The notes under the pieces are model-generated. The model did no database searches and was not told the origin of the DNA. It saw nothing but the letters and a program-made list of their open reading frames with translations. A stretch of DNA of 64,000 nucleotides. Origin: Tateyamaria sp. syn59. GTDB lineage: Bacteria > Pseudomonadota > Alphaproteobacteria > Rhodobacterales > Rhodobacteraceae. The position numbers were made by a program, and so were the translations under genes. The stretch is taken from assembly GCF_007995245.1 (NCBI RefSeq), contig NZ_VCBA01000015.1:1-64000 (forward strand), in the 5' to 3' direction. The first letter of the stretch is position 1, and every line of letters starts with the position of its first letter. This document shows positions 6,541 through 37,242 of the stretch, one piece after another.

Positions 6541-6552
6541 CGCTGCGTTCTC

Positions 6553-9668: not shown

Positions 9669-9693
9669 TTGGGTGATCTCTTTTCAGCGTGAA

Positions 9694-9719
9694 GAGGTGG
9701 CGACATGTGCCGCCACCTC
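9694..9719 (-). promoter_or_regulatory. Intercistronic hairpin between substrate and transporter
   Basis: GAGGTGGCG (9694-9702) and CGCCACCTC (9711-9719) form a perfect 9-bp stem with an 8-base loop, right after the RTX gene stop on the minus strand. No U-run follows, so it is more likely a 3' stabiliser or partial attenuator that keeps substrate mRNA more abundant than transporter mRNA. Confidence 0.55.
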
Positions 9720-9731
9720 GGTCTGTTTCAA

Positions 9732-18377: not shown

Positions 18378-18494
18378 TTGCCCGCGAAAAAGATGTGTCA
18401 CCCCACCTCAGAAGGTGAGCGGCAGTACGATCCGGCGTTGACATGCAGGCAGAATAGGCCAACACCAACCAGGCTCGGCAACAAGGGTCTTCAA

Positions 18495-18899
18495 GTGGAC
18501 AAAGTGGACATCATTCGCAGCACCTGGGCTCAGGCAGCCGCCTCGCCAGAAGAAACCGCGCGCGTTTTCTATTCCACGCTTTTCCAGATTGCGCCGCAAA
18601 ACGAACCCCTGTTCCGCAATGATCTGGCTGCACAGGGCGAAAAACTGATGGAGACATTGGGCTTTGTCGTAGACCACCTTGATGACGAAGACACCTGGAT
18701 ACCGGCGGCCAAGGATCTGGCGATCCGCCATGTCGCCTATGGTGTTAAGGCCGAAGACTATGACAGCGTCGGCTCAGCGTTGATCCAGACCTTCGAGACG
18801 TTGATGGGCGATACGTTTTCCACACAGGCCAAGGCCACGTGGATTGAGGTCTATTCGGAACTCTCTAAGCAAATGATCGAGGCGGCTTATCCGCACTGA
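18495..18899 (+). CDS. Single-domain globin
   Basis: A 134-residue haem protein. The GTG at 18495 is chosen because it gives a globin of normal length starting VDKVDIIRSTWAQA, with AAGGG seven bases upstream; the frame extends 39 codons further without homology. The helix pattern fits the flavohaemoglobin-type globin fold, with LF and AAQGEKLMETLGFVV covering the E helix and LAIRHVAYGVKAEDY carrying the proximal His79. There is no reductase domain. Such globins bind O2 or NO and act in NO detoxification or gas sensing. It lies 98 bp upstream of the FIST sensor gene and the kinase/regulator pair on the same strand, which suggests a shared gas-related role. A UUCG hairpin follows its stop. Confidence 0.85.
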   Translation: MDKVDIIRSTWAQAAASPEETARVFYSTLFQIAPQNEPLFRNDLAAQGEKLMETLGFVVDHLDDEDTWIPAAKDLAIRHVAYGVKAEDYDSVGSALIQTFETLMGDTFSTQAKATWIEVYSELSKQMIEAAYPH

Positions 18900-18915
18900 C
18901 TATACTTCGGTATAG
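18900..18915 (+). terminator. UUCG tetraloop hairpin after the globin gene
   Basis: CTATAC (18900-18905), loop TTCG, GTATAG (18910-18915). The stem starts at the last base of the stop codon's neighbourhood. The UUCG loop is very stable, but no U-run follows, so it may only slow or stabilise the transcript before the FIST gene. It contains copy 2 of the CTTCGGTATAG repeat. Confidence 0.4.
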
Positions 18916-18996
18916 CCTCCTTATGCCGATGCTACCCCTCTTTGTGCACCTGCCGTGGTATGACGCGCGGGAGTGAGCCTATTTGAGGAAGAGAGC

Positions 18997-20178
18997 GTGC
19001 ACATCGAGACAATCGAGTGGTCAGACGGCAGCGCGGCAGCGCGATTGAAGGAACGAAATGCGGAACATGGGTCAAAGCCCGATCTGGTGGCGCTGCACTA
19101 TGCTTGTGACATCAACCCCGCTGACATCTCGGCGCTGGCGTCCGAAATGGCAACGGGCTTGCACGCAGCGACCTCCTGCAAAGGCAGCGTCACAGAAGGT
19201 TCCCACGCCCCTGCCCCCGCGACTGCCTTTTGCATCTGGGATGCGATGGGTGACTACGGCACAGCCCTTGCCTCCTTTGACAGCCAATCCCCTTTTGACG
19301 CAGGCGCGCAGGCGGCCAGCGCTGCCCTTGAGGCAGCAGACAGGGTCGGCGAGATGCCGGATCTGGTTCTTGTGTCGGCAACACCAGGCTACGAGGAGAC
19401 CGTGCTGCAAGGGATCATGTCCATCGTTGGCCAGGACGTGCCGATTTTTGGTGGCACAGCGGCCGACAACACTGTTTCGGGCGAGTGGCGTGTTTCAGAT
19501 GGGGCTGCCTTCCACGCGCAAGGCGTTGTGGTCAGCGTGTTGTTCCCCTCAACCAAGCTGCATTTTGCCTATCACAACGGCTATGAGCCCAGCGCCAATC
19601 AGGGGCAGGTCACCCGGTCCGAAGGGCGCAAGCTGATCGAGATTGACGGCAAACCCGCAGCAGAGGTCTATCACACCTGGACAGGCAAGAGCGTGCTGCC
19701 CAACGCGCTGGGATCAGAGCACAACATTCTGGCCGAGGCGACAATGACACCGCTGGGTGTCGAGCTAGGCGTGCAGGACGGTGTTGGGAATTACCTGCTC
19801 TTGCACCCTGCCCAATTGCACGCAGATGGGTCTTTGGGTCTTTTTGCCGAAATCCCCGATGGGACGATCCTCACCCAGATGACCGGTGACGAACAGGCGT
19901 TGGCGGAACGCGCAGGTCGCGTTGCAGCACAAGCGGTAAACGTCGGATCAGTGGCTCCACAGGACGTCGCTGGGGCCTATATGATCTACTGTGGTGGCTG
20001 TCTGATGGCCGTCGAAGACCGGGTGTCAACCATCCTGGATGGGGTGCGAGCGGCCCTGCCCGGCGTTCCGTTTCAGTCGGCGTTTACCTTTGGCGAACAA
20101 GGTCAGGTACGCGGCGTAGGCAACAAGCATGGCAATCTGATGATATCATGCGTAGTGTTCACGAAACTGCCCAACTGA
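18997..20178 (+). CDS. FIST-domain sensor protein (NosP-like arrangement)
   Basis: A 393-residue cytoplasmic protein with FIST N (about residues 20-215, with GGTAADNTVSGEWRVSDG and AYHNGYEP) and FIST C (about 230-375, with HNILAEATMTPLG and MIYCGGCLMAVEDR). FIST domains are proposed to bind small ligands; in NosP proteins a FIST protein binds haem/NO and controls a co-cistronic hybrid kinase. Here a hybrid kinase gene follows 19 bp later, which is the same layout. The GTG at 18997 is chosen because AGGAAGAG lies just upstream; an in-frame GTG at 18973 has poor spacing. A C-terminal CGGC motif is noteworthy. The ligand cannot be read from sequence. Confidence 0.88.
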   Translation: MHIETIEWSDGSAAARLKERNAEHGSKPDLVALHYACDINPADISALASEMATGLHAATSCKGSVTEGSHAPAPATAFCIWDAMGDYGTALASFDSQSPFDAGAQAASAALEAADRVGEMPDLVLVSATPGYEETVLQGIMSIVGQDVPIFGGTAADNTVSGEWRVSDGAAFHAQGVVVSVLFPSTKLHFAYHNGYEPSANQGQVTRSEGRKLIEIDGKPAAEVYHTWTGKSVLPNALGSEHNILAEATMTPLGVELGVQDGVGNYLLLHPAQLHADGSLGLFAEIPDGTILTQMTGDEQALAERAGRVAAQAVNVGSVAPQDVAGAYMIYCGGCLMAVEDRVSTILDGVRAALPGVPFQSAFTFGEQGQVRGVGNKHGNLMISCVVFTKLPN

Positions 20179-20197
20179 CACACCAAACACCCGACAT

Positions 20198-22978
20198 ATG
20201 CCAGCCAGTGAGCGCCTTCGCGAGATACTGATTGAAGTGCAGACACTGCGCGAGCGCGAAGCGCAGGCTCTGAAGGAAACAACCTCCCTGCTTGACATGC
20301 TGGAGGCCGTGGCAACCGCTGCCGAGCCGCAAGACGCCATGCGCGCTTTTCTAGGGGAGATCGCCAACAGTCTGGATGCAGAAGTGGTCGCGATCCTCCG
20401 CATCGAGGAAGGCCGCCACACCCTCGTGGCAAGCTGGCCAGAAACAGCAAAGCTGGAGCCCTTCACACCGCCTGCTAACCTGGGGGTCAAGTTCAGGACG
20501 TTCGTTGATCTTGATGCTGTGCCGGCATGGTCTGACGTGCTTGGCGGCGGCTTTACCGCCACACGAAGCCTGCTTTCCGTCCCGGTCAGCCACCCCGATG
20601 GCAGGCCAGGCGCTGTTGCCTGTTTTCACACCGAAGCCAAACACTTTTCCAAAGAAGACGCTCAGCTTCTACGGCGGCTCAGCCGCTTTGCCTCGCAAAT
20701 CCTCAACGCGCTGCATCTGAGCGCGCAGAACGCCCTTCTGGCAGCGGTTATTGACGGATCATCCTCGGGCTTTGCCATTGCGGATGCCACCGATGACGAA
20801 ATGCCGCTGGTTTTTGTCAACAAGGCCTTTGAAGACATGACCGGTTACTCTGCGGCAGAAGTGCTGGGCAAGAACTGTCGCTTCCTGGCTCAGGATCCCT
20901 CCGACAGCCCTGAACGCAAGCGGTTGCGCCAAACGGTGAAGGACCGGGGCGCAGGCCATTTCCAATTGCGCAACCGAAAAAAGTCGGGCGAGCTTTTCTG
21001 GAATGACCTGACGCTGTTCCCGGTCCGCGATGACACCGCGCAGGCCACCCATCTGGTCGCGACCCAGACCGACGCCACAGATCGCGTCACGCTGGAGGAC
21101 GCCCAGCGCGCAGCACAAGCGCGGCTGTCTGCAACGCTTGCACATACCAACGATGCCTTTCTGCTGATCCTCGACGGCGACAGGGTTGGCTTCAGCAACC
21201 CGGCCCTGCGCCGCCTGTTTCCCGCCCCGGGGCGTGATTGGGCGGAAGGATCGCTATTTGCGGAAAATTGGGCCGCCTATCTTGATGCTATCCCTGCAGC
21301 GCAGCGGCCCAACGGCGAGGCCTTCCTCAAGCCCGATCTAATGCAGCTGACCCGGAACGAATCCGGCCAGCGCCTTCAACTGCCAGACGGCAAGCAGGTG
21401 CTTGTGCGCGCCGATCAGGCGGAAGACGGCAATCTGGTGCTGTCCGCCACCGATATCACCTCGCTGCGCAATACAGAACGGCTGTTGCGCCAGCGCGCGG
21501 TGGCAGTTGAAAACGCCTCAGACGGGATAGCGATTGCCGATGCGAGAGGGCGCGTGATCTATGCAAACCCCAGCCTTGCGCGGCTTCTTGGCGCGAAAGA
21601 CGAAGGGCATCTTGTCGGGCGGAAATGGCGTAGTTTCTACACTGACGTTCCGACAGACGTGCCGGACAGCGCCCGTGTCAGCGACGGCGGCGGCACCTTG
21701 ATGGCCCTGAAGACCACCTCTGAATCAAACCTTTACCATGAAATTTCCTCCACCCTTGCGGACAAGGTGGGCGAGGTCGTGGTCATTCGCAACGCCACGG
21801 CCCGTGTTCTAATGCTGGAGCGGCAGCAGGAACTCAACAAGCAGCTGGAACGCTCACGGCGGCGCGAGGCGATCTCTCAACTCGCTGCCGGATTGGCGCA
21901 TGATTTCAACAACCTGCTGTCTGCCATCAACGGCTCTGCGACGCTGATCGGGATGGAGGGTACCGCGACCCCCGCAATCCGCGATCACGCGAGCCGGATT
22001 GGCCGGGCGGGCAATCAGGCTGCGCGTCTGGTGAATACGCTGCTCGATCTTGGGGCTGCTGGTGAAAACGACAGTGTGTTTGATCTGCGCGCCGTTGTTG
22101 CTGAGGCTGAGGAGCTGATCCGCGCAAGCCTCGACACCGGTGTGACCCTTCGTGTAGAAGCGCCGCCCGAGGCCCTACTGATCCGTGGCCAAACGGGGGA
22201 CCTGAGCCAGGTGCTTGTCAACCTCTTCCTGAATGCAAACGATGCCTACGAGGGGGCTGAGGGCACAGTTGAGGTCTTGCTTAAACCCACGATGGGCCAT
22301 GACACCGACATGCGTGTCGGGGACTTGCGTGCCGGACGCGCCTATGCCCGCCTGAGCGTGCGGGACCAAGGATGCGGCATGATGGCGGAGACGCAAGAGC
22401 GCGTGTTCGAGCCTTACTTTTCCACCAAAGGCAGCGCAGGCACAGGGGTCGGCCTGCCCATGGTCGCAACCATCGTGGAACGCGCAGGCGGGGCCATTGA
22501 TCTCAGTTCCACCGTCGCGGAAGGCACCACATTCACAATCTACTGGCCGCTGGATGAGCGCGAGGAAACCTGTGCGCTCTCGCCCGAGGCCAACAGCGAC
22601 CTTTCTGGTCATACGATCCTGCTGCTAGATGATGAGCCGCAGGTGATGGAGGTTCTTGGGGCCTACCTCGAAGAACACGGGGCCGAGGCCGTTGCCATTT
22701 CACACCCGGAACTCGCGATTGAGACGCTGCTCGAAGACGGAGGGGCCTGGTCGGCCCTGATCACCGATTACGACATGCCGGAACTCACCGGGGGTGATGT
22801 TGTCCACCAGTTGCGCAATGCAGGCTGCACCGTGCCGATCTATGTTGCCACCGCATTGGCCCGGCGCTTGAAGGACCCCCGCATCAACGGCCAGACCGTG
22901 TCAGAGATATTTGCAAAACCTCTGAATTTGAGAGAACTTGTGCAACGACTGGCAGAGGATCTGCCGCAAAAAGATTGA
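20198..22978 (+). CDS. Hybrid histidine kinase: GAF, LOV-like PAS, PAS, PAS, HisKA, HATPase, receiver
   Basis: A 926-residue soluble hybrid sensor kinase. An N-terminal coiled coil (~5-30) is followed by a GAF-like domain (~33-175). A PAS domain (~182-297) has a LOV-type core (GKNCRFLAQD with Cys227, then LRNRKKSGELFWN). Two more PAS-like regions follow (~305-423 and ~430-535), then HisKA with phospho-acceptor His568 (GLAHDFNN), a HATPase (DQGCGM, GTGVGLPM) and a receiver with acceptor Asp857 (ITDYDMP). There are no membrane segments. In LOV photoreceptors the NCRFL cysteine forms an adduct with flavin; here the residue after L is Ala-Gln rather than Gln-Gly. It lies between FIST and response regulator genes, 19 bp and 7 bp away, so this is one signalling operon. 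Confidence 0.9.
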   Translation: MPASERLREILIEVQTLREREAQALKETTSLLDMLEAVATAAEPQDAMRAFLGEIANSLDAEVVAILRIEEGRHTLVASWPETAKLEPFTPPANLGVKFRTFVDLDAVPAWSDVLGGGFTATRSLLSVPVSHPDGRPGAVACFHTEAKHFSKEDAQLLRRLSRFASQILNALHLSAQNALLAAVIDGSSSGFAIADATDDEMPLVFVNKAFEDMTGYSAAEVLGKNCRFLAQDPSDSPERKRLRQTVKDRGAGHFQLRNRKKSGELFWNDLTLFPVRDDTAQATHLVATQTDATDRVTLEDAQRAAQARLSATLAHTNDAFLLILDGDRVGFSNPALRRLFPAPGRDWAEGSLFAENWAAYLDAIPAAQRPNGEAFLKPDLMQLTRNESGQRLQLPDGKQVLVRADQAEDGNLVLSATDITSLRNTERLLRQRAVAVENASDGIAIADARGRVIYANPSLARLLGAKDEGHLVGRKWRSFYTDVPTDVPDSARVSDGGGTLMALKTTSESNLYHEISSTLADKVGEVVVIRNATARVLMLERQQELNKQLERSRRREAISQLAAGLAHDFNNLLSAINGSATLIGMEGTATPAIRDHASRIGRAGNQAARLVNTLLDLGAAGENDSVFDLRAVVAEAEELIRASLDTGVTLRVEAPPEALLIRGQTGDLSQVLVNLFLNANDAYEGAEGTVEVLLKPTMGHDTDMRVGDLRAGRAYARLSVRDQGCGMMAETQERVFEPYFSTKGSAGTGVGLPMVATIVERAGGAIDLSSTVAEGTTFTIYWPLDEREETCALSPEANSDLSGHTILLLDDEPQVMEVLGAYLEEHGAEAVAISHPELAIETLLEDGGAWSALITDYDMPELTGGDVVHQLRNAGCTVPIYVATALARRLKDPRINGQTVSEIFAKPLNLRELVQRLAEDLPQKD

Positions 22979-22985
22979 ACGCCTC

Positions 22986-23600
22986 ATGCGCATACTTCTG
23001 GCCGACGACCACGATATGGTCCGGGACACACTAGCAGCCTTTTTGTCCCGCGAGGATGACATCGAAGTGGTGACCGCTGCGGACCTGCATGACGCGGTCG
23101 CCATCATCGACAAGGATCGCCCTTTTGATCTGGTGTTGCTGGATTACTCCATGCCCGGCATGGACGGCCTGAAAGGGTTGGAAACCGTGATAAATACCGG
23201 GGCCACGCGACCCGTTGCAATCATGTCGGGCACCGCCCCCAAAGCCGTGGCCCAAGAAGCGCTGGATGCTGGAGCCGTCGGCTTTTTGCCCAAGACCATG
23301 GCGGCAGCCTCCATGGTCAATGCGATCCGCTTCATGGCAGCGGGGGAAACCTTCGTTCCCGTGAAGTTCATGACTGCCGAGGATCCAGAAGAAACCAATC
23401 CGCTGGCAAAGGGTCTGAACCCACGAGAATTGGAAGTGTTGGGGGGCCTGTGCCGCGGCCTTGCCAACAAGGAAATCGCACGCGAGCTGGAGTTACAGGA
23501 GGTCACGATCAAGCTGCATGTCAAAACGCTGTGCCGCAAGCTTGAGGCCAAGAACCGCACGCACGCGGCCATGATTGCAAAAGAGGCCGGTCTGTTCTGA
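22986..23600 (+). CDS. NarL/FixJ-type response regulator (LuxR HTH)
   Basis: A 204-residue DNA-binding response regulator. The start at 22986 (MRILLADDHDMVRDTLAAFL) is the natural receiver start, seven bases after the kinase stop; an upstream frame extension overlaps the kinase. The receiver (~1-120) has acidic DDHD and the acceptor in LLDYSMPGMDG. The output is a LuxR-type helix-turn-helix (LNPRELEVLGGLCRGLANKE, then ELQEVTIKLHVKTLCRKLEAKNR). It is the probable output of the FIST/kinase pair. Its last codons overlap a strong hairpin that serves as terminator for the convergent RTX gene. Confidence 0.93.
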   Translation: MRILLADDHDMVRDTLAAFLSREDDIEVVTAADLHDAVAIIDKDRPFDLVLLDYSMPGMDGLKGLETVINTGATRPVAIMSGTAPKAVAQEALDAGAVGFLPKTMAAASMVNAIRFMAAGETFVPVKFMTAEDPEETNPLAKGLNPRELEVLGGLCRGLANKEIARELELQEVTIKLHVKTLCRKLEAKNRTHAAMIAKEAGLF

Positions 23601-23618: not shown

Positions 23619-26075
23619 TCAGAACAGGATCGCGTCGCTCACATCCTGCAGGAAGGCGTTGCCAAGGTTCTGGTGATCGTCGAGTTCCAGCGTCAGACCC
23701 TCAAGCGTGACCTGAAGGGTGTTTGCGTCGCTCCAGATCAGATGCTGTGTGACCCAGTCCTCTTCGCTTTGCCCCCCTGACAGCAGGTCCAGCGCTCGAA
23801 AATCGAGCCAGTCCCCGTCAAAGTCGGTGATCCGGTCGGTGCTGTTGTCCAGATCGCCCGCGCGGAAGATGAAGACATCCGCGCCTTCGCCGCCTGCCAT
23901 CGTGTCGTTGCCTTCACCGCCATAGATGCGATCCCGGCCGGCCCCGCCGTCGATCAGGTCATCGCCCCGGTGCGCGTTGATGTAGTCGCGCCCGTCGCCG
24001 CCGTTCACAACATCATCGCCAGACCCGGACCGGATGCGGTCATCCCCCGCATCACCGGACACCACGTCGTTGCCGGTGCCAGCATTGATATCGTCGTTGC
24101 CGGTGCCACCTCTGATCTGATCGTCCCCCGATCCACCTTCAAGCGTATCGGTGCCTGTGCCGCCATCAAGCGTGTCATCACCTGATCCGCCGTTTAGCAG
24201 GTCATCGCCCGCGCCGCCCATGAGATGGTCAGATTGCGCACCGCCAGACAGTGCATCGTCACCTTCCCCAGCGGCCAGAACATCGTCACCAGATCCACCC
24301 GAAAGCGTATCATCCCCGATGCCGCCGCTAAGCGTGTCGTGCCCGGCAGAGCCGTCCAACAGGTCGTTGCCTTCACCACCAGACAGAATGTCGTCATCCT
24401 CTGGCAGCAGGTTGCCGAATTGATCATAGCGCAGGCCGTTTTCGTCATAGGTGGATATTACCCCACCGCCTTGATCAGGCCCGGCACCGCCATAGAGCGT
24501 GTCATCCTGCGCACCGCCATCCAAATTATCTCCGCGCGAGCTGCCGATCAACAGGTCCTCGCCAATACCGCCCTGAATGGTGTCCTGGCCCGCGTTCCCG
24601 TCGATCACGTCGTCATAGGAATTTGCCGCGTCCTCGGTCAGCACCAGATCAGGCGAGTCGATCAGCACAACGGCACCCGCATCAACGGAAGTAAACGGAT
24701 CAATCGCGCGCGGGTCAAAGGCACCGTCGTTCGAATAGGACCGAGGCGCATCTGCAACCAGCACCAAAACGATCTCGCCCGTGTCGGCGTTGATATCGAC
24801 GCGATAGATGCCGCCAGACGACGGCGTGCTGTCATCCATATCATGATCACCACTGTTGCCGCCCACATAAAGCGTGCCATCCCGGTCCACCACGGCGGCC
24901 CCAAAGGTCACACGCGGCGCGCCTTCGTGGAATTCGCCATCAATGATGGTGCCGGAGATATCCATGGTCGAGAATTGAGGCTCCCCTCCTTCGGAAACGC
25001 CAGAGACGTCCACGGTGAAGAGCTGCGCTATGCCGCCTTCCTGCGCCGGGCTGACAACACCGCGAAAGACCTGCGCCTCTGCGTCAAACGCCAGATCCCA
25101 GACCCGGTCTGTCACCAGATCATGCTCGAAACGGTAGACAGTTGTCACCGGGTTGCCGTCTGCATCAAACTGGTCCACGTCGATCACGGACACTCGGTCC
25201 ATCGACGAATGGAACGACCACAGGTTGCCCTGATCGTCAAAATCCCCGGTCCAGGCACGATAGGGGCTTTCGCCGAGACGGTAAGAATTGCCTTCAGCGT
25301 CCAGCATCACGATGTCGGTCTGCGCCACCGCGTTGCCAAGGCTGTCGACGCCATTGCGCACTGCCACGCCATAAAACAGGTCGTCTTCCTGATTGAATCC
25401 AAGGCTGTTCACAACCACGCTCGCATCCGCCCCAAGCTGGGAATAGCTTTCGCTGGCCGGATCAAAAGCAAACATCGTGCCGTTAATGATCTGGTAGATG
25501 TAAGGCTGGCCTGCAACAACCGCGCGCACCTCCAGCTCTTCCCCGCCGATGGTCACGCCCCGGTCGTAAGACAGGATAGGGCCATCGTCGTGGATAGTCG
25601 GGCCGGCATCGTTTTCGGATTCCGAGGCCCGGAACGTCAAAACACCTTCACCTCCCGTCCCTGCGAAGCTGACTTGATGGGCCTGAAAATCACCAGAGTT
25701 GGTGTCGAAGCTGTCGATCACCTCGCCGTTCCAGAGAACCTCGACAAGACCGGAAAGTGTGCCGCCTGAAACGTTTGATGCAACGTCAAAAGACAGCGTG
25801 TACGTGCTGCCTTCGAGGGTCTGAACCGATTGGCTCATTTCCTGCGCGGCACCGTTTTGGTGCACCTGCCAGGCACCATCTTGCCCGTATTGTGCAAAGG
25901 TCAGCGCGTCCGAGACGTCGGTGATCAGGTTTTCGCCGGGGGTGTCTCCGACAAGGATGTCGTTGCCAGCGCCGCCGGAAATTGTGTCGTCGCCTGCAAG
26001 GCCGGTGATGAGGTCAGATTGGCTCGATCCAGTCAAATTGTCATGCTGATCGGTGCCCAGAAGTGTCTGTGACAT
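23619..26075 (-). CDS. RTX exoprotein linked to the alginate-like locus
   Basis: An 818-residue acidic protein without a Sec signal. It begins with a short RTX-like block (~8-45, DNLTGSSQSD, GDDTISGGAGNDILVGD). A lectin/jelly-roll-like segment (~55-150) and a propeller-like segment (~165-480, with QPYIYQIINGTMFAFDP, DDQGNLWSFHS and GTLYVGGNSGDHDMDD) follow, then a long RTX repeat array (~500-740) and a C-terminal export region ending SDAILF. There is no parallel-beta-helix epimerase module, so it is not an AlgE-type mannuronan epimerase by sequence. AAGGAA precedes the ATG. It follows algD by 53 bp on the same strand and is probably co-transcribed with it. This suggests a matrix or capsule-associated protein. 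Secretion is probably type I. Confidence 0.85.
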   Translation of the reverse strand: MSQTLLGTDQHDNLTGSSQSDLITGLAGDDTISGGAGNDILVGDTPGENLITDVSDALTFAQYGQDGAWQVHQNGAAQEMSQSVQTLEGSTYTLSFDVASNVSGGTLSGLVEVLWNGEVIDSFDTNSGDFQAHQVSFAGTGGEGVLTFRASESENDAGPTIHDDGPILSYDRGVTIGGEELEVRAVVAGQPYIYQIINGTMFAFDPASESYSQLGADASVVVNSLGFNQEDDLFYGVAVRNGVDSLGNAVAQTDIVMLDAEGNSYRLGESPYRAWTGDFDDQGNLWSFHSSMDRVSVIDVDQFDADGNPVTTVYRFEHDLVTDRVWDLAFDAEAQVFRGVVSPAQEGGIAQLFTVDVSGVSEGGEPQFSTMDISGTIIDGEFHEGAPRVTFGAAVVDRDGTLYVGGNSGDHDMDDSTPSSGGIYRVDINADTGEIVLVLVADAPRSYSNDGAFDPRAIDPFTSVDAGAVVLIDSPDLVLTEDAANSYDDVIDGNAGQDTIQGGIGEDLLIGSSRGDNLDGGAQDDTLYGGAGPDQGGGVISTYDENGLRYDQFGNLLPEDDDILSGGEGNDLLDGSAGHDTLSGGIGDDTLSGGSGDDVLAAGEGDDALSGGAQSDHLMGGAGDDLLNGGSGDDTLDGGTGTDTLEGGSGDDQIRGGTGNDDINAGTGNDVVSGDAGDDRIRSGSGDDVVNGGDGRDYINAHRGDDLIDGGAGRDRIYGGEGNDTMAGGEGADVFIFRAGDLDNSTDRITDFDGDWLDFRALDLLSGGQSEEDWVTQHLIWSDANTLQVTLEGLTLELDDHQNLGNAFLQDVSDAILF

Positions 26076-26128
26076 GGGGTGTTCCTTTGATTTGAACGTT
26101 TGGGTTTGAGGGGAAGGCGGGGCTGCTG

Positions 26129-27523
26129 TTACCAGCCGATCCCGTCGTAGGTGCCCTTGGCAGGGCGTTCCGGCGTCAGCCGAACAAGATCGATCACGGG
26201 GCAGTCCGCGCTCAGGGCGGCCTCCACGTAGTCATCGTTGCGTTGGGTCACGATCAGGGCGTCGACGGCGCCGGTCACATCCGCGAGGTCATCGCGCAAC
26301 ATGCCAGGCAAGTGCTCTGCCATGTCCTGCAGCCCCTGGCTGCCGTTCTGAACATAGGCCAACTGGCCCTCCAACGGTGTTTCCGGCGAAATGGCAGGGT
26401 CATGGATGACCACATCGACACCTTCGGCGCGCAGATCCGCGATGACCTCCAGTATCGGGCTTTCGCGCAAATCGTCGGTGCCGGGTTTGAACGCCAGCCC
26501 CAGCACGCCAACCTTTTTTGCACCCGTCTTGCGCACCATTTCGGTCGCTTCCGCGATGTGGCAGTCGTTTGACGTGCCAAGATGCTGAATGAGCGGCAGA
26601 TCAACGCCGAGGTTTTCGGCAATATGGGCCACCGCACGGACTTCCTTGGGCAGACAAGACCCGCCATAGGCAAAGCCGGGCTTGAGATAATAGGGCGACA
26701 GGTTCAGCTTGGTGTCCTGGACAAAGACGTCCATGACCTCGTGACTGTCGACACCCAGCGGCTTGCACAGACGCCCCACTTCGTTGGCAAAGGTCACCTT
26801 GGTCGCATGCCAGACGTTGTCGATGTATTTCACCATCTCGGCAGTTTCGATCGACGTGATGACCGGGGCCGCGTCCACCGGTGCGTAGATCCGCGCGAGT
26901 ATGTTCGCAGAGCGATCACAGGTCGCACCAATCACGGTTTTAGGCGGCTCGTGGAAGTCGGCCACGGCCACACCTTCTCGCAGAAACTCGGGGTTGAATG
27001 CGATGCCGAAGTCATCGCCCAGCACCTTGCCCGACATCTTTTCGATGATCGGGGCCATCACCTTCATCGTGGCCCCCGGCGGGATCGAACAGCGCATGAC
27101 CACCGTGTGAAAGCCATCTTTCTGCGCGATGCCCACACCAATCGAGCGCGCGGCGGATTCGATGTAGCGGTAGTCGCACCCGCCGTCCGCTGCTGTGGGC
27201 GTGCCAACGCTGACAAAGGTCACATCAGTATCGCGCACTGCATAGGCCAGATCATCCGTTGTGGTAATCAGGCCGTTTTCCACGCCCTCCGACAACAGCT
27301 CGCCCAGACGATCTTCGTGGATGGGTGAACGGCCAGCGCCAACATCTGCGATCTTGGTCTGGTCTAAGTCCACACCGACGACACGGTGGCCAAGGCTCGA
27401 CAGGCAGGCGGTCGACACAGCGCCGACGTAGCCAAGGCCAACGATGCTGATAGCCGGTTTCTCTTCGATGACGCGCAGGGCGACTGGGGTTGCGGGTGCA
27501 GTAGCAAAAGGTGTCAGATCCAT
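26129..27523 (-). CDS. algD: GDP-mannose 6-dehydrogenase (AlgD-like)
   Basis: A 464-residue member of the UDP-glucose/GDP-mannose dehydrogenase family. It has an N-terminal Rossmann domain (ISIVGLGYVGAVSTACLSSLGH), a central domain with EFLREGVAVADF and KYIDNVWHATKVTFANEVG, the catalytic cysteine in GFAYGGSCLPKEVRA, and a C-terminal NAD/UDP-binding domain (VGVLGLAFKPGTDDLRESP). GFAYGGSCLPKEVRA resembles the Pseudomonas AlgD motif, and the adjacent manC, alg8 and alg44 homologues support GDP-mannose as substrate. It oxidises GDP-mannose to GDP-mannuronate, the committed alginate precursor. A terminator separates it from manC, so it has its own promoter in 27524-27690; the RTX gene follows 53 bp downstream. 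UDP-glucose dehydrogenase is the less likely alternative. Confidence 0.88.
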   Translation of the reverse strand: MDLTPFATAPATPVALRVIEEKPAISIVGLGYVGAVSTACLSSLGHRVVGVDLDQTKIADVGAGRSPIHEDRLGELLSEGVENGLITTTDDLAYAVRDTDVTFVSVGTPTAADGGCDYRYIESAARSIGVGIAQKDGFHTVVMRCSIPPGATMKVMAPIIEKMSGKVLGDDFGIAFNPEFLREGVAVADFHEPPKTVIGATCDRSANILARIYAPVDAAPVITSIETAEMVKYIDNVWHATKVTFANEVGRLCKPLGVDSHEVMDVFVQDTKLNLSPYYLKPGFAYGGSCLPKEVRAVAHIAENLGVDLPLIQHLGTSNDCHIAEATEMVRKTGAKKVGVLGLAFKPGTDDLRESPILEVIADLRAEGVDVVIHDPAISPETPLEGQLAYVQNGSQGLQDMAEHLPGMLRDDLADVTGAVDALIVTQRNDDYVEAALSADCPVIDLVRLTPERPAKGTYDGIGW

Positions 27524-27689
27524 CTCAGTTCTAGCTCCATCCAGGGTTTTTCACTTTCTGCACCCCTTCTAAAATATTGTTTTTGCTTTATGTTTTGGGG
27601 GAATGGATAGGAAGGGCGGCAAAGGGCTTGCCGGACTATCCTTTCGCATGGTGCCCGCTCACCCATCGAGAACGCGCAGCATGGCGCAC

Positions 27690-27725
27690 AAAAAAGACCC
27701 CCCGGTGGTGGTGAACCGGGGGGCC
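27690..27725 (-). terminator. Strong intrinsic terminator after manC
   Basis: CCCCCCGG (27698-27705) pairs with CCGGGGGG (27716-27723) around a 10-base loop. On the minus strand it is followed by TC and six Ts (27691-27696), a textbook Rho-independent terminator 65 bp after the manC stop. It shows that algD-RTX forms a separate transcription unit. Confidence 0.85.
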
Positions 27726-27787
27726 TCTGACGGCCAGATGAGAGAGTTGAGTGGAGCCGCCTGGCCGATATCTTGAAGGGGTGTGCG

Positions 27788-29203
27788 TCAGGCCGCAGAG
27801 GCCTCCGCGCGGGCGTAGATGTCTTCGTAGCGCACGATGTCATCTTCGCCGAGGTAGCAACCCGATTGCACTTCGATCAGCGTGAGCGACAGCTTGCCCG
27901 GATTGGACAGTCGGTGCACCGCGCCCAGCGGAATGTAGGTGCTTTCGTTCTCGGTCTTCAGCATGTCCTCGCCGTCCACATGCACGATGGCCGAGCCTTC
28001 TACGACCGTCCAATGCTCTGACCGGTGATGGTGGGATTGCAGGCTCAGCTGTGCACCAGGCTTGACCACGATCCGCTTGACCTGAAAGCGCGGGCCGAGG
28101 GCCAGGGTTTCGTAGTGGCCCCAGGGACGATGGCACCTTGAGAACTCGGTCGCCTGTTTGGCGTCCTGCGCTTTCAGGGTGCCCAAGACTTCCTTCACGC
28201 GCTGGCTGTCGTCAGTTTTGGCCACGAGGATCGCATCGCCCGTGACAATCGCGGTAATCCCGTCCAGACCCAGCCCTACAAGGGCGGTGTCCCCATCCGA
28301 GCGCAGCAGCGTATCGGTGCAATCCATGGCGGTCGCGTTGCCTTGGGTGACATTGCCGCCTGCGTCCTGATCGCCTTCACGCCAGACCGCATCCCAAGAC
28401 CCCATGTCGGACCATCCGCAATCCATGGGCACCACCGCCAGATCGTGATGTTTTTCCATGATCGCATAGTCGACCGAGATATCTTCGACCCGGCCCCAGG
28501 GCTCTTCCGCCAGGCGGATGAAGTCGAGGTCGCGTTCCGCGTTGGCGAGTGCGCCATGGCACGGCAGCATCATCTGCGGGGCGTAGCGGTCAAAGGCGTT
28601 GATCAGCGTGTCAACGCGGGCCATGAACATGCCGCCGTTCCACAGATACTTGCCGGTTGCGATCATCTCTGCGGCGCGCTCTGCGTCGGGCTTTTCGACG
28701 AATGACAACAGCGGCTGTGCGTCAGCACCGGCGTCGATGGCTTGCGCCAGTTCAAGGTAGCCAAAACCTGTCTCGGGCCGTGTCGGGCGGCTGCCGAAGG
28801 TGACGATGCGGCCCTTGGTTGCGGCCTTTTCGCCTGCGTCCAACGCAGCCTTGAAGCCCGCGTCATCGGCAACAGTGTGGTCAGACGGGCAGATCAGAAG
28901 AACCCGCTCAGGCGTGTCCGCGTGCATCAGCGCAGCCGTCAGGATCGGTGCGGCCGTATTGCGGCCCTGAGGTTCGATGACAATCTGTTGCAGCGCGCGA
29001 CCTGCTGCCTGCTCGGCGGCGATAAAGCGATAGTCATTGCCGGTGATGACCACAGGGGCCTCAAGGTGTGACAGCCGGTCCAGCGTGGCCTGATAGAGGC
29101 TCTGATCACCGGTCAGATCGGTAAATTGCTTGGGGTATGCCTTGCGGCTGACAGGCCAAAGACGGGTGCCGGTGCCACCGGCCAGGATGATAGGAGTGAT
29201 CAT
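27788..29203 (-). CDS. manC: Mannose-1-phosphate guanylyltransferase / mannose-6-phosphate isomerase
   Basis: A 471-residue bifunctional enzyme of the AlgA/ManC type. The N-terminal nucleotidyltransferase (about 1-340) has the pyrophosphorylase motif GGTGTRLWPVSRKAYPKQF, and FVEKPDAERA follows. The C-terminal type II PMI cupin (~355-465) has PWGHYETL, HHHRSEHWTVVEG and the metal-binding region up to YIPLGAVHRLSNPG. It converts fructose-6-P to mannose-6-P and mannose-1-P to GDP-mannose. The ATG at 29203 has GGAG upstream; the TTG seven codons earlier is less likely. It is separated from the alg8-like gene by 291 bp containing a hairpin, and followed by a strong terminator. It supplies GDP-mannose to AlgD. 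Confidence 0.92.
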   Translation of the reverse strand: MITPIILAGGTGTRLWPVSRKAYPKQFTDLTGDQSLYQATLDRLSHLEAPVVITGNDYRFIAAEQAAGRALQQIVIEPQGRNTAAPILTAALMHADTPERVLLICPSDHTVADDAGFKAALDAGEKAATKGRIVTFGSRPTRPETGFGYLELAQAIDAGADAQPLLSFVEKPDAERAAEMIATGKYLWNGGMFMARVDTLINAFDRYAPQMMLPCHGALANAERDLDFIRLAEEPWGRVEDISVDYAIMEKHHDLAVVPMDCGWSDMGSWDAVWREGDQDAGGNVTQGNATAMDCTDTLLRSDGDTALVGLGLDGITAIVTGDAILVAKTDDSQRVKEVLGTLKAQDAKQATEFSRCHRPWGHYETLALGPRFQVKRIVVKPGAQLSLQSHHHRSEHWTVVEGSAIVHVDGEDMLKTENESTYIPLGAVHRLSNPGKLSLTLIEVQSGCYLGEDDIVRYEDIYARAEASAA

Positions 29204-29417
29204 TGTGCAAGCTCCACTTTGCAAGAATTGTTTTCGATGAGGCAGGTGTAACCTGCTGATTCACCGAAATCTTCTGAGCGGAGGGATGGTTTCCGGCGCT
29301 TTGGGTGAGCAGGAGGTCTCGAAAGTATAGGGGGCATTCACCTTGCAAATGAGCGTGCCGCGTTCGAACCGAAGGGTGGGCGAGAAACGCCAATCCCGTG
29401 GGGGCGGTTCGGTCGCT

Positions 29418-29436
29418 GCCCGTGCACAGCACGGGC
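29418..29436 (-). promoter_or_regulatory. Hairpin between alg8-like gene and manC
   Basis: GCCCGTGC (29418-29425) and GCACGGGC (29429-29436) form an 8-bp stem with a 3-base loop in the gap between alg8-like and manC. No U-run follows. It may be a stabiliser or attenuator within the operon. The rest of the ~290-bp gap shows no gene. Confidence 0.45.
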
Positions 29437-29494
29437 ATGATGCGTTTTCATTGACGAACGACAATAGCCGGAAGATGGTGGTAAATTCTGCCTG

Positions 29495-31069
29495 TCAAAA
29501 CGGCAGCGCCATCACCCCGGAGTAAAGCGCCAGCCCGTAGACAAACCCGGTCACCGTCGTCACCAGCTGAAATTTGGCCATCCAGCCTTGCAGCCGCTGG
29601 CCGTCCCCGGCGGACTGATTGCCCCGGTTTGACCACTTCTGCTTGGACAGATGGAAGATCATGAAGATCTTCACAGAGGCGTTGATCACCTGATTGAGGT
29701 ATAAGATCACCGGCCAGCTCAAATCGATCCGCAACGAATAGCGGAACAGAAACAGGCACAGCAGGACCCGGCTGAAAAGCACCCAGACCAGGCAATTCCA
29801 GATGTAGATGGGCTCGGCCAGTGATACCAACACCGCCATCACCGGACTGACCATCATTGTCCACATCGCCAGACGCTGATCGACAAGGCACCACCATATG
29901 AAGGGGTTCACCTTGCGCGGTCCTAGTGCAATGGCGCGCTGGCCGTTGCGCAGCATGTTGCCGGACCAGCGGCGGAAGTTCTGGACCATGCGGCCCAGGC
30001 CGTTCTCCTTAATCACCTCGATGGTGTAGACGGTCGCGTCGGGCACATAGCACATCTTCGCGTCGCGGGTCAGCATGTGGTACCAGGTCGATTTGTCATC
30101 GCCCGACAAAAACCGGAAACGGCCCCACAGCCAGTGGTCCAGATGGTCCGCCTCAATCGTACGAATGAACTTCTCAGACAACATGTGTTCGGCTCGGAAC
30201 ACCGACATGCGGCCTGTGAGGGTCAGCACCTTGCCCGCCAGCGCGTGGCTTTGCATCGCCAAACGACGCTGCGCAAAGCGCATGTCGAGCCAGGACGCGA
30301 TCCACTGGGGGCCGTAGCAGATCACCTCTTCATCCGTGGTTAGCGCCTGCAACTCAGGGTCCGCGCCAAACATGCTCAGCGTCTTTTCCAGCACGTCCTC
30401 GCCATAAAGCGCGTCCCCGTCCATGAAGATCACCAGATCGTCGGGGTGCACGCCATTGCGGTTGATCGCGCGCAGGATCATGCCAATGGCCATCCGCTTG
30501 CCCGGCTGGTTCTGGCGCAGGAACACCAGTTTCGCGAGCTCATCAGGGATATCGGCGGCGTGCGTGCGCACGAACTCGGTGATGATCTGTTCGTCGTAGT
30601 ACGTCCCTGTCCCGATATAAAGCGTCGTCGGGATCCGCTCGCGCCGGATCTGGCCGAGGATGGAGCCGATGACCCGCTTGGTGATCGCCGGTTCTTCGTA
30701 GTAGGTGGTCATCTGGATGTGCAGGCGACGGGGGCGCCAGCCGTCGGCCCAAAGCGCAGAGGCCCGGGCGCGAGTGCCGGGCCAGACGCGGCGGGCATAG
30801 ATTTCGGCGCGCACCGCATGGGTGAACCACCAGCCAAAGCGCCAGATGCCCAGCGTGCCAAGCATTAGCGTCACGTGCATTGTTGTCGGGACAAAGTAGC
30901 GGTTCGGCATATGTGTGAGCAGCCAGACCAGCAGAGTGAAGAGTGCCGCAAAGCCAAAGATCTGCCGCCATGACCACCGCGCGCGGCCCTGCCCCTTGAG
31001 CTCCACAAGAGTTTGCAGGCGACCCGTCAGGTCCTTGTCGAACTCATAATCGCTTTCAGGCGCAGACAT
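29495..31069 (-). CDS. alg8: Alg8-like processive glycosyltransferase
   Basis: A 524-residue inner-membrane GT2 synthase. Two N-terminal membrane segments (~33-85) are followed by a cytoplasmic catalytic domain (~110-390) with the substrate-binding DGD (FMDGDALYGED), the TTDEEV segment, the catalytic region DHLDHWLWGRFRFLSGDDK and the Q(x)xRW motif (QNFRRWSGNMLRN). Several C-terminal membrane helices (~400-500) complete it. The overall layout and motifs match Alg8, the polymannuronate synthase using GDP-mannuronate. The gene starts 15 bp after the alg44-like gene and precedes manC and algD, as expected for one pathway. Hyaluronan- or cellulose-type synthases are possible by fold but less likely by context. 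Confidence 0.85.
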   Translation of the reverse strand: MSAPESDYEFDKDLTGRLQTLVELKGQGRARWSWRQIFGFAALFTLLVWLLTHMPNRYFVPTTMHVTLMLGTLGIWRFGWWFTHAVRAEIYARRVWPGTRARASALWADGWRPRRLHIQMTTYYEEPAITKRVIGSILGQIRRERIPTTLYIGTGTYYDEQIITEFVRTHAADIPDELAKLVFLRQNQPGKRMAIGMILRAINRNGVHPDDLVIFMDGDALYGEDVLEKTLSMFGADPELQALTTDEEVICYGPQWIASWLDMRFAQRRLAMQSHALAGKVLTLTGRMSVFRAEHMLSEKFIRTIEADHLDHWLWGRFRFLSGDDKSTWYHMLTRDAKMCYVPDATVYTIEVIKENGLGRMVQNFRRWSGNMLRNGQRAIALGPRKVNPFIWWCLVDQRLAMWTMMVSPVMAVLVSLAEPIYIWNCLVWVLFSRVLLCLFLFRYSLRIDLSWPVILYLNQVINASVKIFMIFHLSKQKWSNRGNQSAGDGQRLQGWMAKFQLVTTVTGFVYGLALYSGVMALPF

Positions 31070-31084
31070 CAGTTCACCTCCGCC

Positions 31085-32470
31085 CTAGTGAATCCACTCC
31101 GGGACCCAGGCGCGCCGGATGCGCAGGTCCACGGGACTGAGCGGGGTCAGCTGGGTCTGTGGCGGGGTGGCAACGGTAACAATCAGGCCGAAACCCCGCT
31201 TGGCAGCACTTTCGTCGACCCCCGCCACAACGGTCAGAACCTCACCTTCAAACTGCTGAGGGCCTTCCGGCGTTGGCACCGTCATCTGCGCCGTCATGCC
31301 GGGGGCCAGGCGGGTCAGGTGCGCCTCATCCACCCAGGTGCGGATGGTGCGGGGCGCATTTTCCTCGACCACCGCAAGGGGCGTGCCGCGGGCCACATGC
31401 ATGTCTTGCAAGGCCGTCACATCCCGAACGGTGCCTGCGACCTGCGCCTTGATGTCCAAGAGCCGTGCATCAGCCTTGGCGATACCGACTGCCCGCTTGG
31501 CGCGACGCACGTCCTCTTTGCGGGCATTGCGCGTGGCAACCAGATCTGCGCGGATGTCATGGTAGTCGCCCGACCGCAGGCTGCGCCCGTCTTCGAGCGC
31601 ACGCACGGCGGCCCTTATTGCGTCAACGTCGGCCTGCGGGCCTGGTATATGCCGCTCCCCCTGACGCGCCAGCGCAGCTTCAAGCTGAGCCTCCAGCGTC
31701 TCCAGAACCTGCGGATAGGTCGCCTCATGCTTGCGCAACAGGGCGCGGGCCTCTGTCAAGGCGTGTTCCTTATCGTTGAGCGCGCGGCGGGCATCATCCA
31801 GACGCCCCTCGCGGCGTGGATCGGACATGCGGATCAGCGTGTCACCCCGTGCAACACTGTCACCCACTTGCACCATGATCTTGTCGATATAGGCGGGTGC
31901 CGTCGACACATGGGTGACTTCGGGGGCAATCACCCGGGCCTGCACCGTCGGAATGGTCATGACCCGCAAGATCACGCTTTGACCCAGCAGGCCAAAGATC
32001 AAAACGGCCGCCGCGAGATAGGTCAGAAGCGCCTTGACCAACCTGAATGCGCGAGACGGAACATGTGCGGTGGCAGCGGCTTCCTCCTCTTCCGTTTCGC
32101 CCATCGGCACCAGATCAACCGGAGTATCAAGTGCGGTAATCATGTCTTGCGTGCTGGCCATGCGACCGGACAGCAGGTTCGAATGAAACAGCGCCAACAC
32201 CTCACGCTGCCGAACGGTCAGATCTTCGAAGGCATAGAAGTCTCCACTGGCATCTGCTGAAAGCTTCACCGGAAAGCCCAGATCAATTCCCTGGAAGGGG
32301 ATGCTCAGGGTTCCGCGCGTTGGGAAAACGTCCATACCCTCTGGCTTGCAAACGCCGCTCACGCACCATGCGTCAATCACCACATCCGGCTGATCAGCGA
32401 CCCGCAGTTTCAGCGGGGCCCGCGCAAAGAAGGTCAACTCCTTGTGCGGTGGTTCATGTACGATCTCCAT
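31085..32470 (-). CDS. alg44: Alg44-like PilZ / HlyD-fold copolymerase
   Basis: A 461-residue protein with Alg44 architecture: an N-terminal PilZ-like domain (~8-110), one membrane segment (~145-166) and a periplasmic HlyD-like adaptor region with a coiled coil (~205-330) and lipoyl-type strands (IDKIMVQVGDSVARGDTL, VDEAHLTRLAPGMTAQMTVP). Alg44 binds c-di-GMP and activates Alg8. Here the usual RxxxR and [D/N]xSxxG motifs of PilZ are not evident (KELTFFARAPLKLRV and DAWCVSGVC at those places), so c-di-GMP binding is uncertain. The ATG at 32470 has AAGGG seven bases upstream, but the frame is open up to 32656 and an ATG at 32509 is possible. It is divergent from the algC-like gene. Confidence 0.78.
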   Translation of the reverse strand: MEIVHEPPHKELTFFARAPLKLRVADQPDVVIDAWCVSGVCKPEGMDVFPTRGTLSIPFQGIDLGFPVKLSADASGDFYAFEDLTVRQREVLALFHSNLLSGRMASTQDMITALDTPVDLVPMGETEEEEAAATAHVPSRAFRLVKALLTYLAAAVLIFGLLGQSVILRVMTIPTVQARVIAPEVTHVSTAPAYIDKIMVQVGDSVARGDTLIRMSDPRREGRLDDARRALNDKEHALTEARALLRKHEATYPQVLETLEAQLEAALARQGERHIPGPQADVDAIRAAVRALEDGRSLRSGDYHDIRADLVATRNARKEDVRRAKRAVGIAKADARLLDIKAQVAGTVRDVTALQDMHVARGTPLAVVEENAPRTIRTWVDEAHLTRLAPGMTAQMTVPTPEGPQQFEGEVLTVVAGVDESAAKRGFGLIVTVATPPQTQLTPLSPVDLRIRRAWVPEWIH

Positions 32471-32706
32471 TCTCGTGCCCTTTGTCGGCTCCAACTCGAG
32501 GCCCTGCATAAAGGGCGCGGGTGCCGGCACGACAGGTCCCAACAGGGTAAGTTCAGGCGTAAAGGGACAGCGCCCTATCCTTTGGTAGAGTCCCCCTATC
32601 CCACCTGCACCCGTTGCGAGTTCATTCGCATAAGACGCAATGATTTCATTTATCAAACGGGCCTGGGCGTTCTAGGAGCGGTTCAAGCGCTTTTGTGGAG
32701 TATGCG

Positions 32707-34089
32707 ATGATGACCCGTCTTTCCTGTTTCAAATCCTACGACATCCGGGGCCGGGTGAACGAAGACCTAACCGAACAGCTGGCTCGCGATTTGGGCGAGG
32801 CTGTGGCGCAGGTGATGGCCGCCAAAACGGTTGTCATTGGCCAAGACGCGCGGGCGGACTCGCCGCGCTTTGCGGCGGCGTTGGCTCAAGGGCTCAACCG
32901 CGCGGGCGTGGACGTGCTGGACCTGGGGCTCTGCGGGACCGAAGAGGTTTACTTCGGCACCGACCACTATGACGCCGGTGCAGGCATCATGGTCACGGCC
33001 TCACACAACCCGATTGATTACAACGGGTTTAAGCTTGTGGGGCGCGGCGCGACCCCCCTGCCCGATAAGACCTTCCGCAAGATCGAGGCCGCAACCGCCA
33101 CCGCGGATTTTCAAAAAGCCGCCCGACCCGGCAGCCTGAAGCAGGCGAATTGCCGCGAGGCATATGTCGCACGGGTCCTGTCTTTCGTGGACCCGTCTGA
33201 TCTTGACGGCTTCCGGGTGCTGGCCAACGCAGGCAATGGTGCTGCGGGCCCGACCTTTGACGCCGTCGTGGAGGGGCTCTCGGCGGCGGGGGCGAAGCTC
33301 GATATCGTGCACCTGCACCACACACCGAACGCGACCTTTCCCAATGGCATCCCCAACCCCCTGCTGCCCGAAAATCAGCCGGTCACCGCAAATGCCGTGC
33401 TGCAGAACAAAGCCGATGCGGGCCTGGCCTGGGACGGCGACTTCGACCGCTGCTTCTTTTTCGACGAAAAGGGAGCCTTCATCCCCGGCGAATACATCGT
33501 CGGCGCGCTGGCGGATGCCGTTCTGGCCCGCAGCCCCTTCGAAAGCATCGTCCACGACCCGCGTGTGTTGTGGAACACGCAGCGTATTGTGGCGCAGGCA
33601 GGCGGCACGGCAGTCGCCTCAAAAACCGGGCACGCGCTGATCAAGGCCAAGATGCGCGAAACGGGTGCGGTCTACGGCGGAGAGATGTCCGCGCACCACT
33701 ATTTTCGCGACTTCATGTATTGCGACAGCGGCATGATCCCCTGGGTGCTGCTGCTGGCGCGGCTTGCGCAGACCGACCAATCGCTCAGCGCGCTGGTGGC
33801 CGACATGCGGGACCTGCATCCGTCGTCCGGAGAAATCAACTTCCGCGTCACAGACGCCAAAGCCGCCACGGCGGAGGTGGAGCGGTTGTTCACGAGCGCA
33901 GAAACGCAGATCGACCGTCTCGACGGGCTGAGCCTGACAAATGACAGCTGGCGCCTCAACCTCCGCGCCTCCAACACCGAACCCCTGCTGCGACTGAACA
34001 TCGAAACCCGCCAGGATGGCGCGTTGCTGGAAGACAGGGTCAAGGCGGTAACAAAATGTTTGGAGCAGTTCCTGGCTGACACGGCTTAA
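32707..34089 (+). CDS. Phosphomannomutase / phosphoglucomutase (AlgC-like)
   Basis: A 460-residue alpha-D-phosphohexomutase. It starts MMTRLSCFKSYDIRGRVNEDL; GGAG at 32697-32700 supports the ATG at 32707. The catalytic phosphoserine loop is VTASHNPIDYNGFKLVG, the metal loop is DGDFDRCFFFDE, sugar binding is GGEMSAHHYF, and the phosphate-binding C-terminus is LRASNTEPLLRLNIE. It interconverts mannose-6-P and mannose-1-P, the step between the two ManC activities. It is divergent from alg44-like, sharing a short regulatory region, so it completes the GDP-mannuronate pathway of this locus. The close relative ManB is an alternative name. Confidence 0.92.
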   Translation: MMTRLSCFKSYDIRGRVNEDLTEQLARDLGEAVAQVMAAKTVVIGQDARADSPRFAAALAQGLNRAGVDVLDLGLCGTEEVYFGTDHYDAGAGIMVTASHNPIDYNGFKLVGRGATPLPDKTFRKIEAATATADFQKAARPGSLKQANCREAYVARVLSFVDPSDLDGFRVLANAGNGAAGPTFDAVVEGLSAAGAKLDIVHLHHTPNATFPNGIPNPLLPENQPVTANAVLQNKADAGLAWDGDFDRCFFFDEKGAFIPGEYIVGALADAVLARSPFESIVHDPRVLWNTQRIVAQAGGTAVASKTGHALIKAKMRETGAVYGGEMSAHHYFRDFMYCDSGMIPWVLLLARLAQTDQSLSALVADMRDLHPSSGEINFRVTDAKAATAEVERLFTSAETQIDRLDGLSLTNDSWRLNLRASNTEPLLRLNIETRQDGALLEDRVKAVTKCLEQFLADTA

Positions 34090-34277
34090 GGTGCCAACTG
34101 ACAAAAGACACCCGTTTGTAACAGGTCTTCTCATCAAGTTACCCTCGCCGGGAGCACGTTTTGGAGACGAAAGTCTGACCCGCCAACCCACACTCATAAA
34201 AAGCAAAGCTGTGCTTCGGCAAAGGAAAAGTTCTGTCGCAAAAGGAAGAACTATGTGTCGCCTTACAATTTGAGAAG

Positions 34278-34354: not shown

Positions 34355-34423
34355 ACTGGCGGGCGGTTTAGTCCTCGCGCCACAGGTTTGCAAGGGGATT
34401 TCCGAGCAAATGGGCAGAGAGGC

Positions 34424-35806: not shown

Positions 35807-35818
35807 CGTGCTATGTGG

Positions 35819-37237: not shown

Positions 37238-37242
37238 TGGAA

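Follow-up and report, generated by a model that had tools for sequence, protein, structure and literature searches.

Comparison with known systems

Control of kinases by NosP proteins in response to NO is described in parts of two reports (PMC12570481, PMC8846402). As in the NosP-NahK/NosK systems of Pseudomonas, Legionella and Burkholderia, the island analysed here encodes a FIST protein together with a kinase and a regulator, and its output would likewise be related to biofilm. It differs in that the FIST protein scores far below the curated NosP cut-off, the kinase contains a LOV domain, a globin gene is a neighbour, and a DNA-binding protein of the NarL type takes the place of a c-di-GMP enzyme as regulator.

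In other bacteria, adhesion and exopolysaccharide are under the control of LOV proteins (PMC9980756), and the systems of Caulobacter (LovK/LovR) and Rhizobium leguminosarum (cited in PMC9980756) share with the island a connection from LOV signalling to a surface polysaccharide; the island adds FIST, a globin and a palindrome common to the polysaccharide operon. As for the Bjgb-type haemoglobins of nitrate assimilation, the island globin consists of a single domain with the haem-pocket residues kept, but it is tied to a signalling operon, and in the tree it falls largely apart from the globins of nitrate-assimilation (nas) operons. A sister type of the island, introduced below, resembles H-NOX-kinase systems in that the gene for a haem NO sensor adjoins that of a hybrid kinase, and differs from them in that FIST, the palindrome and a regulator of the island's subfamily are present as well. 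Searches of an open literature collection found no paper combining FIST domain, globin and LOV domain, none combining FIST domain, globin and histidine kinase, and none combining LOV, histidine kinase, Rhodobacteraceae and FIST.

The window, i.e., the whole stretch of DNA analysed, comprises 64,000 nucleotides from Tateyamaria sp. syn59. Our preferred reading, which we consider reasonably probable, is that the genes and sites in Table 1 belong to a single regulatory unit for an alginate-like exopolysaccharide, whose FIST, LOV kinase and regulator operon would use the palindrome to act both on itself and on the polysaccharide promoters, and whose sensors are exchangeable. This output was overlooked when the DNA was first read: the regulator and the palindrome are common to the adjacent polysaccharide operon.

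Table 1. Features of the island and of the adjoining polysaccharide genes (positions in the window)
Feature	Position	Strand	Evidence
Single-domain globin, 134 aa	18495..18899	+	PF00042 55.2 bits
Palindrome CTATACTTCGGTATAG, proposed operator of the FIST-kinase-regulator operon	18900..18915		PWM 24.6; conserved before FIST
FIST_N-FIST_C protein, 393 aa from GTG 18997	18997..20178	+	PF08495/PF10442, 78.1 and 73.8 bits
GAF-LOV-PAS-PAS-HisKA-HATPase-REC hybrid histidine kinase; LOV Cys227, His568, REC Asp857	20198..22978	+	Pfam (LOV as PAS_9)
NarL/LuxR-type response regulator, Asp53	22986..23600	+	REC 85.8 bits, GerE 58.9 bits
RTX nonapeptide-repeat protein, convergent with regulator	23619..26075	-	PF00353 9 stretches, DUF6923
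UDP-glucose/GDP-mannose dehydrogenase (AlgD-like)	26129..27523	-	PF03721/PF00984/PF03720; TIGR03026 384.3 bits
Weak palindrome CTATCCTTTCGCATGG, 113 bp before AlgD-like gene	27636..27651		PWM 13.9; 3-mismatch match only
Mannose-1-P guanylyltransferase/mannose-6-P isomerase (ManC)	27788..29224	-	TIGR01479 564.3 bits, cut-off 373
Family-2 glycosyltransferase (GT2), proposed polymerase	29495..31069	-	PF13641 109.6 bits
HlyD-like protein, Alg44-like in position; start ATG 32509 inferred	31085..32509	-	PF13437
Palindrome CTATCCTTTGGTAGAG, 66 bp before inferred HlyD-like start	32575..32590		PWM 18.7; ≤2 mismatches
Phosphomannomutase	32695..34089	+	PF02878/79/80

Gene organisation and distribution

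Pfam matches of the four ORFs agree with the sequence-only reading, by which the genes for globin, FIST protein, hybrid kinase and regulator are consecutive on one strand, and the gaps that it gave are exact, 19 bp from the FIST stop to the kinase start and 7 bp from the kinase stop to the regulator start. About 97 bp, containing the conserved palindrome, separate globin and FIST when the latter starts at GTG 18997; this codon, located behind GAGGAAGAG, is a more likely start than the earliest in-frame one at 18973.

With the FIST protein as query (E≤1e-10), the subfamily was found in 23 of the 394 genomes searched from the family to which the window belongs, and in 13 of 248 in another search. 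By kinase, 17 of the 23 are of the LOV-position type (type A, in which G253 is counted despite its divergent kinase), and five are of a sister type (type B) with a kinase of about 1280–1360 residues and several GAF/PAS domains (domains checked in loci L027 and L106); the last, G017, has a GGDEF-EAL protein in place of the kinase. At locus L028 (7991-11171), FIST is followed by a GGDEF-EAL protein and the kinase is absent from that place. Relatives of the island include a MAG locus (L030), 72% identical, and Pseudaestuariivita atlantica, which has the four genes, RTX and the dehydrogenase, as well as a GT2 at 92%, and whose genus is placed in Paracoccaceae (Rhodobacteraceae in GTDB); L031 was left out as a duplicate of L017. 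In G240, a genome of the same genus, FIST, globin and GT2 were all without a match under the thresholds applied, so the gene set is patchy. A wide distribution was rejected, since in a sample of 385 genomes of the class FIST matched only one more at E≤1e-20. A plasmid origin was rejected as well: of 72,556 plasmid records, a single one matched FIST, a 4.9-Mb Aeromonas record, at 33.5%.

The four-gene order exceeds what chance would give. The same order and strand, with direct adjacency, recur in 11 of the 17 type-A genomes, a count that includes the window and G376, whose contig stops inside the kinase gene. A lack of co-conservation of the globin, named with the first reading as a refutation, does not hold, the globin being near the operon in 14 of the 17. 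In three of these (G185, G213 and G004) it is separated by genes on the opposite strand, polysaccharide genes among them. It is on another contig in G296, and no globin was found near the FIST operon of G230 and G253; neither was one seen in the stretch examined around FIST in the six FIST genomes outside type A. When globin, FIST, kinase and regulator, the four genes compared, are taken in pairs over 12 loci (the window and 11 loci with all four genes), their distances correlate, most strongly for kinase and regulator (Mantel r 0.89); the value for globin and kinase is 0.78. On contig C360 of G296 (L109, 2-1147), which is distinct from the contig of its FIST-kinase-regulator set, a globin gene is directly followed by one for a regulator that shares 74% identity with that of the window.

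The FIST protein

Membership of the FIST protein in the NosP type is not supported. Against the NosP equivalog model it reaches 38.9 bits, with a cut-off of 450, while four relatives reach 27.0–53.4 bits and one has no match; by the curated cut-off, the window FIST is not a NosP. Its gene does lie, as those of NosP proteins do, together with that of a histidine kinase, across the 19-bp gap. That FIST acts as a NosP-like haem sensor of NO controlling the kinase, with the globin, or H-NOX in the sister type, as co-sensor, is a possibility that in our view falls somewhat short of probable. NosP proteins use haem-bearing FIST domains to control co-encoded kinases, as stated in parts of PMC12570481 and PMC8846402, and an H-NOX gene is positioned between FIST and the long kinase in three of the five type-B loci (L027, L104 and L105, no globin nearby), exactly those with a palindrome before FIST. 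The low scores in the NosP model argue against this possibility, as does the fact that 21 of the 23 FIST genomes have H-NOX in a place that is not next to FIST.

The AF2 model of the FIST protein (mean pLDDT 84.5) has its best PDB matches in the FIST protein FBXO22 (E 3.5e-9, TM about 0.5, rmsd 6–8 Å), followed by amide hydrolases of the Toblerone fold; a PDB profile search with the FIST alignment returned nothing credible. Cys69, Cys340, Cys343, His64 and His386 are invariant in the 16 type-A FISTs aligned, and are candidate ligand or redox residues. The three cysteines are present in 25 of 25 subfamily FISTs of one alignment, where the NosP-like row is without Cys69 and Cys343, and Cys340 (numbered C332 there) is invariant in all 20 rows of another that includes Clostridia. 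This conservation would suit a FIST protein in which Cys340, with Cys69 and Cys343, detects a reactive carbonyl or a redox signal, and not NO. The modelled resemblance to human FBXO22 points the same way, as FIST Cys326 of that protein reportedly forms a hemithioacetal with aldehydes (part of PMC13316043). Furthermore, a clostridial homologue of the window FIST (L034, 7740-11696) adjoins genes for aldehyde and iron alcohol dehydrogenases, and a NosP-like FIST is found near a PQQ dehydrogenase. At the island itself, however, no aldehyde, alcohol or PQQ dehydrogenase is seen, and we regard carbonyl or redox sensing by FIST as improbable.

The NosP-like protein just mentioned is the second FIST of the window's own genome (L029, C14:30000-48000, 5654-11736). 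It scores 364.8 bits with the NosP model, which is also below the cut-off, and is accompanied by a NahK/ErcS-like kinase and an ErdR-like regulator, both below their cut-offs.

The kinase and its LOV domain

A LOV-type domain had been proposed for the kinase, and the domain is likely a real LOV domain, judged by the motif GKNCRFL, which conforms to GxNCRFL and contains the adduct cysteine Cys227, and by its best solved relatives, which are LOV photoreceptors and LOV-FixL chimeras. The cysteine of the NCR motif is present in 16 of the 18 kinases aligned. Variant domains, i.e., two without the cysteine (that of L102 among them), one without the Gln (L108) and one without an Asn (L024), count against the preferred reading of the region, and so does the absence of an Hpt domain from the window kinase, which concerns the phosphotransfer route.

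If the LOV domain were to sense a redox or flavin state and not light, the two Cys-less kinases would be accounted for, and a Cys-less LOV-like domain has been implicated in both light and redox responses (part of PMC8846402). The retention of the NCR motif in nearly all of the kinases speaks against this alternative, which we judge to be quite unlikely.

The globin

The globin domain is without a reductase, as expected for a single-domain haemoglobin. All 16 island globins aligned retain the residues that we take to be Tyr B10, Phe CD1, Gln E7 and His F8. Twenty further globin loci (41–47% identity), 15 from genomes without FIST and five from genomes with it, were drawn from the stronger matches among 99 globin-bearing genomes, and 17 of them lie in apparent nitrate-assimilation operons; the neighbouring genes are presumably those of nitrate assimilation, their names having been taken from the starts of the sequences without a domain search.

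The globin could stand outside the sensor, as a housekeeping NO-detoxifying globin beside a FIST-LOV kinase-regulator operon that controls the polysaccharide. The apparent nitrate-assimilation loci, which resemble that of the NO-detoxifying Bjgb (PMC4724949), would favour this. It is the only PF00042 match in the genome, and the palindrome is located between globin and FIST. Upstream of globins (17 regions), the palindrome is strong only in L022 (20.8) and in the orphan L111 (17.7), and weak in L023 (9.4), while the region before the window globin has none above the 95% background level. Because few globins have a palindrome of their own, the globin may be an independent neighbour, and it would usually be outside the palindrome-controlled operon.

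Several observations oppose this explanation, which we consider unlikely. The 17 nas-type globins form a clade of their own (support 96/98), with the island globins largely across from it, although none of 200 bootstrap trees unites the island globins on one side of a branch. Two orphans (G173 and G045) fall among the latter, the island globin of L100 is drawn with a long-branch row, and the starred branches force at least two label changes on the globin tree. The island globins thus appear mostly distinct from the nas globins, and a single clade is not supported. G372 and G243 hold both kinds of globin, and this, together with the tree, contradicts an ordinary nas globin at the island. The globin also stays near the operon even with polysaccharide genes in between, and a palindrome belonging to the globin itself is present for the separated one of G213 and for the orphan of G045. 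The first proposal, that the four genes make up one system, is supported in part, with respect to gene order and co-conservation, but in most cases the globin stands as a unit by itself.

The palindrome

The sequence CTATAC-N4-GTATAG, or a close variant, is found upstream of FIST in 16 of 17 type-A loci, namely the window, 15 relatives including the MAG, and L102 of G253 as the sole miss; the region in G296 is incomplete. L102 lacks the LOV cysteine as well as the palindrome, and its genome gave no regulator match at E≤1e-35. A terminator-like stem-loop with a TTCG loop was rejected as an explanation of the window site, since the arms are conserved while the centre varies, and the palindrome also precedes other genes.

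A PWM was derived from 15 FIST sites picked by eye in the upstream regions, the window among them (the site of L021 was found later). In leave-one-out scoring these sites reach 16.0–26.8, compared with best scores in random 310-bp windows of -2.9 on average and 8.4 at the 99% point. Sites scoring at least 9 number 41 in 365 kb of island loci (14 being training sites), 39 in 345 kb of polysaccharide loci and eight in 340 kb of globin control loci, where one precedes the orphan globin of G045. At a score of at least 11, in 14 polysaccharide loci without FIST, the palindrome is located upstream of HlyD in 6/14, ManC in 2/9, AlgD in 6/12 and the regulator in 7/11, and upstream of GT2 in 0/14 and RTX in 0/11. 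Combined, 21 of 46 upstream regions of HlyD, ManC, AlgD and regulator contain it, against 6 of 101 for other ORFs, and 300 symmetric column-permuted PWMs gave a mean of 0.66 and a maximum of 5 in place of the 21. These 14 loci were taken from 18; the four most divergent (L157–L160), which were left out, have no site scoring at least 9 and no regulator.

With up to two mismatches, the genome contains only four sites: a 14-kb stretch of the window has two, and another precedes the gene for a second regulator from the subfamily. At three mismatches, a reversed-pattern control gave 32+44 matches and the pattern itself 15+18, which counts against the preferred reading; only strong sites are therefore considered, and the site at 27636 is weak.

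Palindromes were also noted in other surroundings. In contig C4 of the same genome (L190, 5012-8851), a PAS-HisKA-HATPase-REC-Hpt kinase and the second regulator (50% identity) are encoded divergently, with a palindrome in the promoter region. A palindrome scoring 21.5 precedes a gene set for a REC-SpoIIE phosphatase, STAS and HATPase_c_2 in L023 (12568-15151), and a strong one (23.2) precedes a gene with weak, sub-threshold Wzz/GNVR matches in L026 (2687-4293).

The regulator and the polysaccharide genes

The alginate-like genes in the window encode a ManC above its cut-off, a phosphomannomutase, a UDP-glucose or GDP-mannose dehydrogenase (AlgD-like), a GT2 and a HlyD-like protein, in which a PilZ domain was sought and gave no match. 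No acetylation gene (AlgF, AlgI or AlgX) is present among the 10 proteins scanned in 23619-40623; elsewhere in the genome there is one ALGX match, and the relative L143 has AlgF, MBOAT and ALGX. In Phaeobacter, mutants of an algA homologue show reduced biofilm, as cited in part of PMC6224355.

A GT2 of at least 55% identity is present in 12 of the 23 FIST genomes and in 18 of 371 others (Fisher p 2.9e-9, kinship ignored). In eight of the 12 it shares a contig with FIST, at a distance of about 13 kb at most; in four it is on another contig. The other 11 FIST genomes are without a close GT2, which counts against the preferred reading; among these, annotated in part, FIST is accompanied by polysaccharide genes of other kinds in G185, G213 and G004, and by an RTX gene in G243. 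In 10 type-A loci, window counted, the RTX gene directly adjoins that of the regulator in convergent orientation.

The regulator, with REC and GerE domains and the phospho-accepting Asp, is of the NarL/LuxR type. Regulators 51–75% identical to it occur at 11 of the 18 GT2 loci without FIST, in nine convergent beside RTX, in L149 on the same side without an RTX match, and in L147 beyond the HlyD-like gene. The kinases near the regulator in L143, L144 and L147, the three checked, are hybrid kinases with Hpt. The sensory part appears exchangeable, in that these FIST-less genomes combine the same polysaccharide genes with the regulator type and the palindrome of the island. An exchange of front ends is also suggested by the regulator tree, on which FIST-linked and FIST-less regulators need four label changes each; that the starred branches force only one counts against the preferred reading. 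On the other hand, the regulator subfamily is common, with 50 of 120 genomes at E≤1e-50, and this counts against the preferred reading; the figure is the unbiased one, the other regulator search having used genomes chosen for FIST, GT2 or globin.

According to the preferred reading, FIST protein, LOV hybrid kinase and NarL-type regulator would form one operon, and blue light, through LOV, and a FIST ligand would set the balance of kinase and phosphatase activities. The adjacent globin would most likely remove or report NO (or O2) and so tune the kinase input. The phosphorylated regulator is predicted to bind CTATAC-N4-GTATAG and to control its own operon together with the promoters of the adjacent dehydrogenase and HlyD-GT2 polysaccharide genes, and the RTX protein may be the matrix partner of the polysaccharide. 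Globin, FIST and LOV kinase look like an exchangeable front end on a fixed chassis of regulator, operator and polysaccharide genes, which suggests that sensor modules are swapped on the latter. An unstudied multi-sensor kinase thereby gains a concrete candidate output in the palindrome and the polysaccharide operon. If the reading is true, blue light, and possibly NO, would be tied to the formation of the surface coat in a family with many marine members.

A more specific proposal, tentative and rather doubtful, is that of a light- and NO-gated polysaccharide switch, with one regulator type and operator fixed to the alginate-like operon. Three sensor sets would be interchangeable (globin, FIST and LOV kinase; H-NOX, FIST and long kinase; Hpt-bearing hybrid kinase), and a free globin or H-NOX would be the gas-sensing partner of the FIST-controlled kinase.

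In L155, two copies of one ORF (7102-7914 and 18438-19250), which we take to be transposase-like, flank the polysaccharide operon, and one of them occupies the place of the regulator in relatives.
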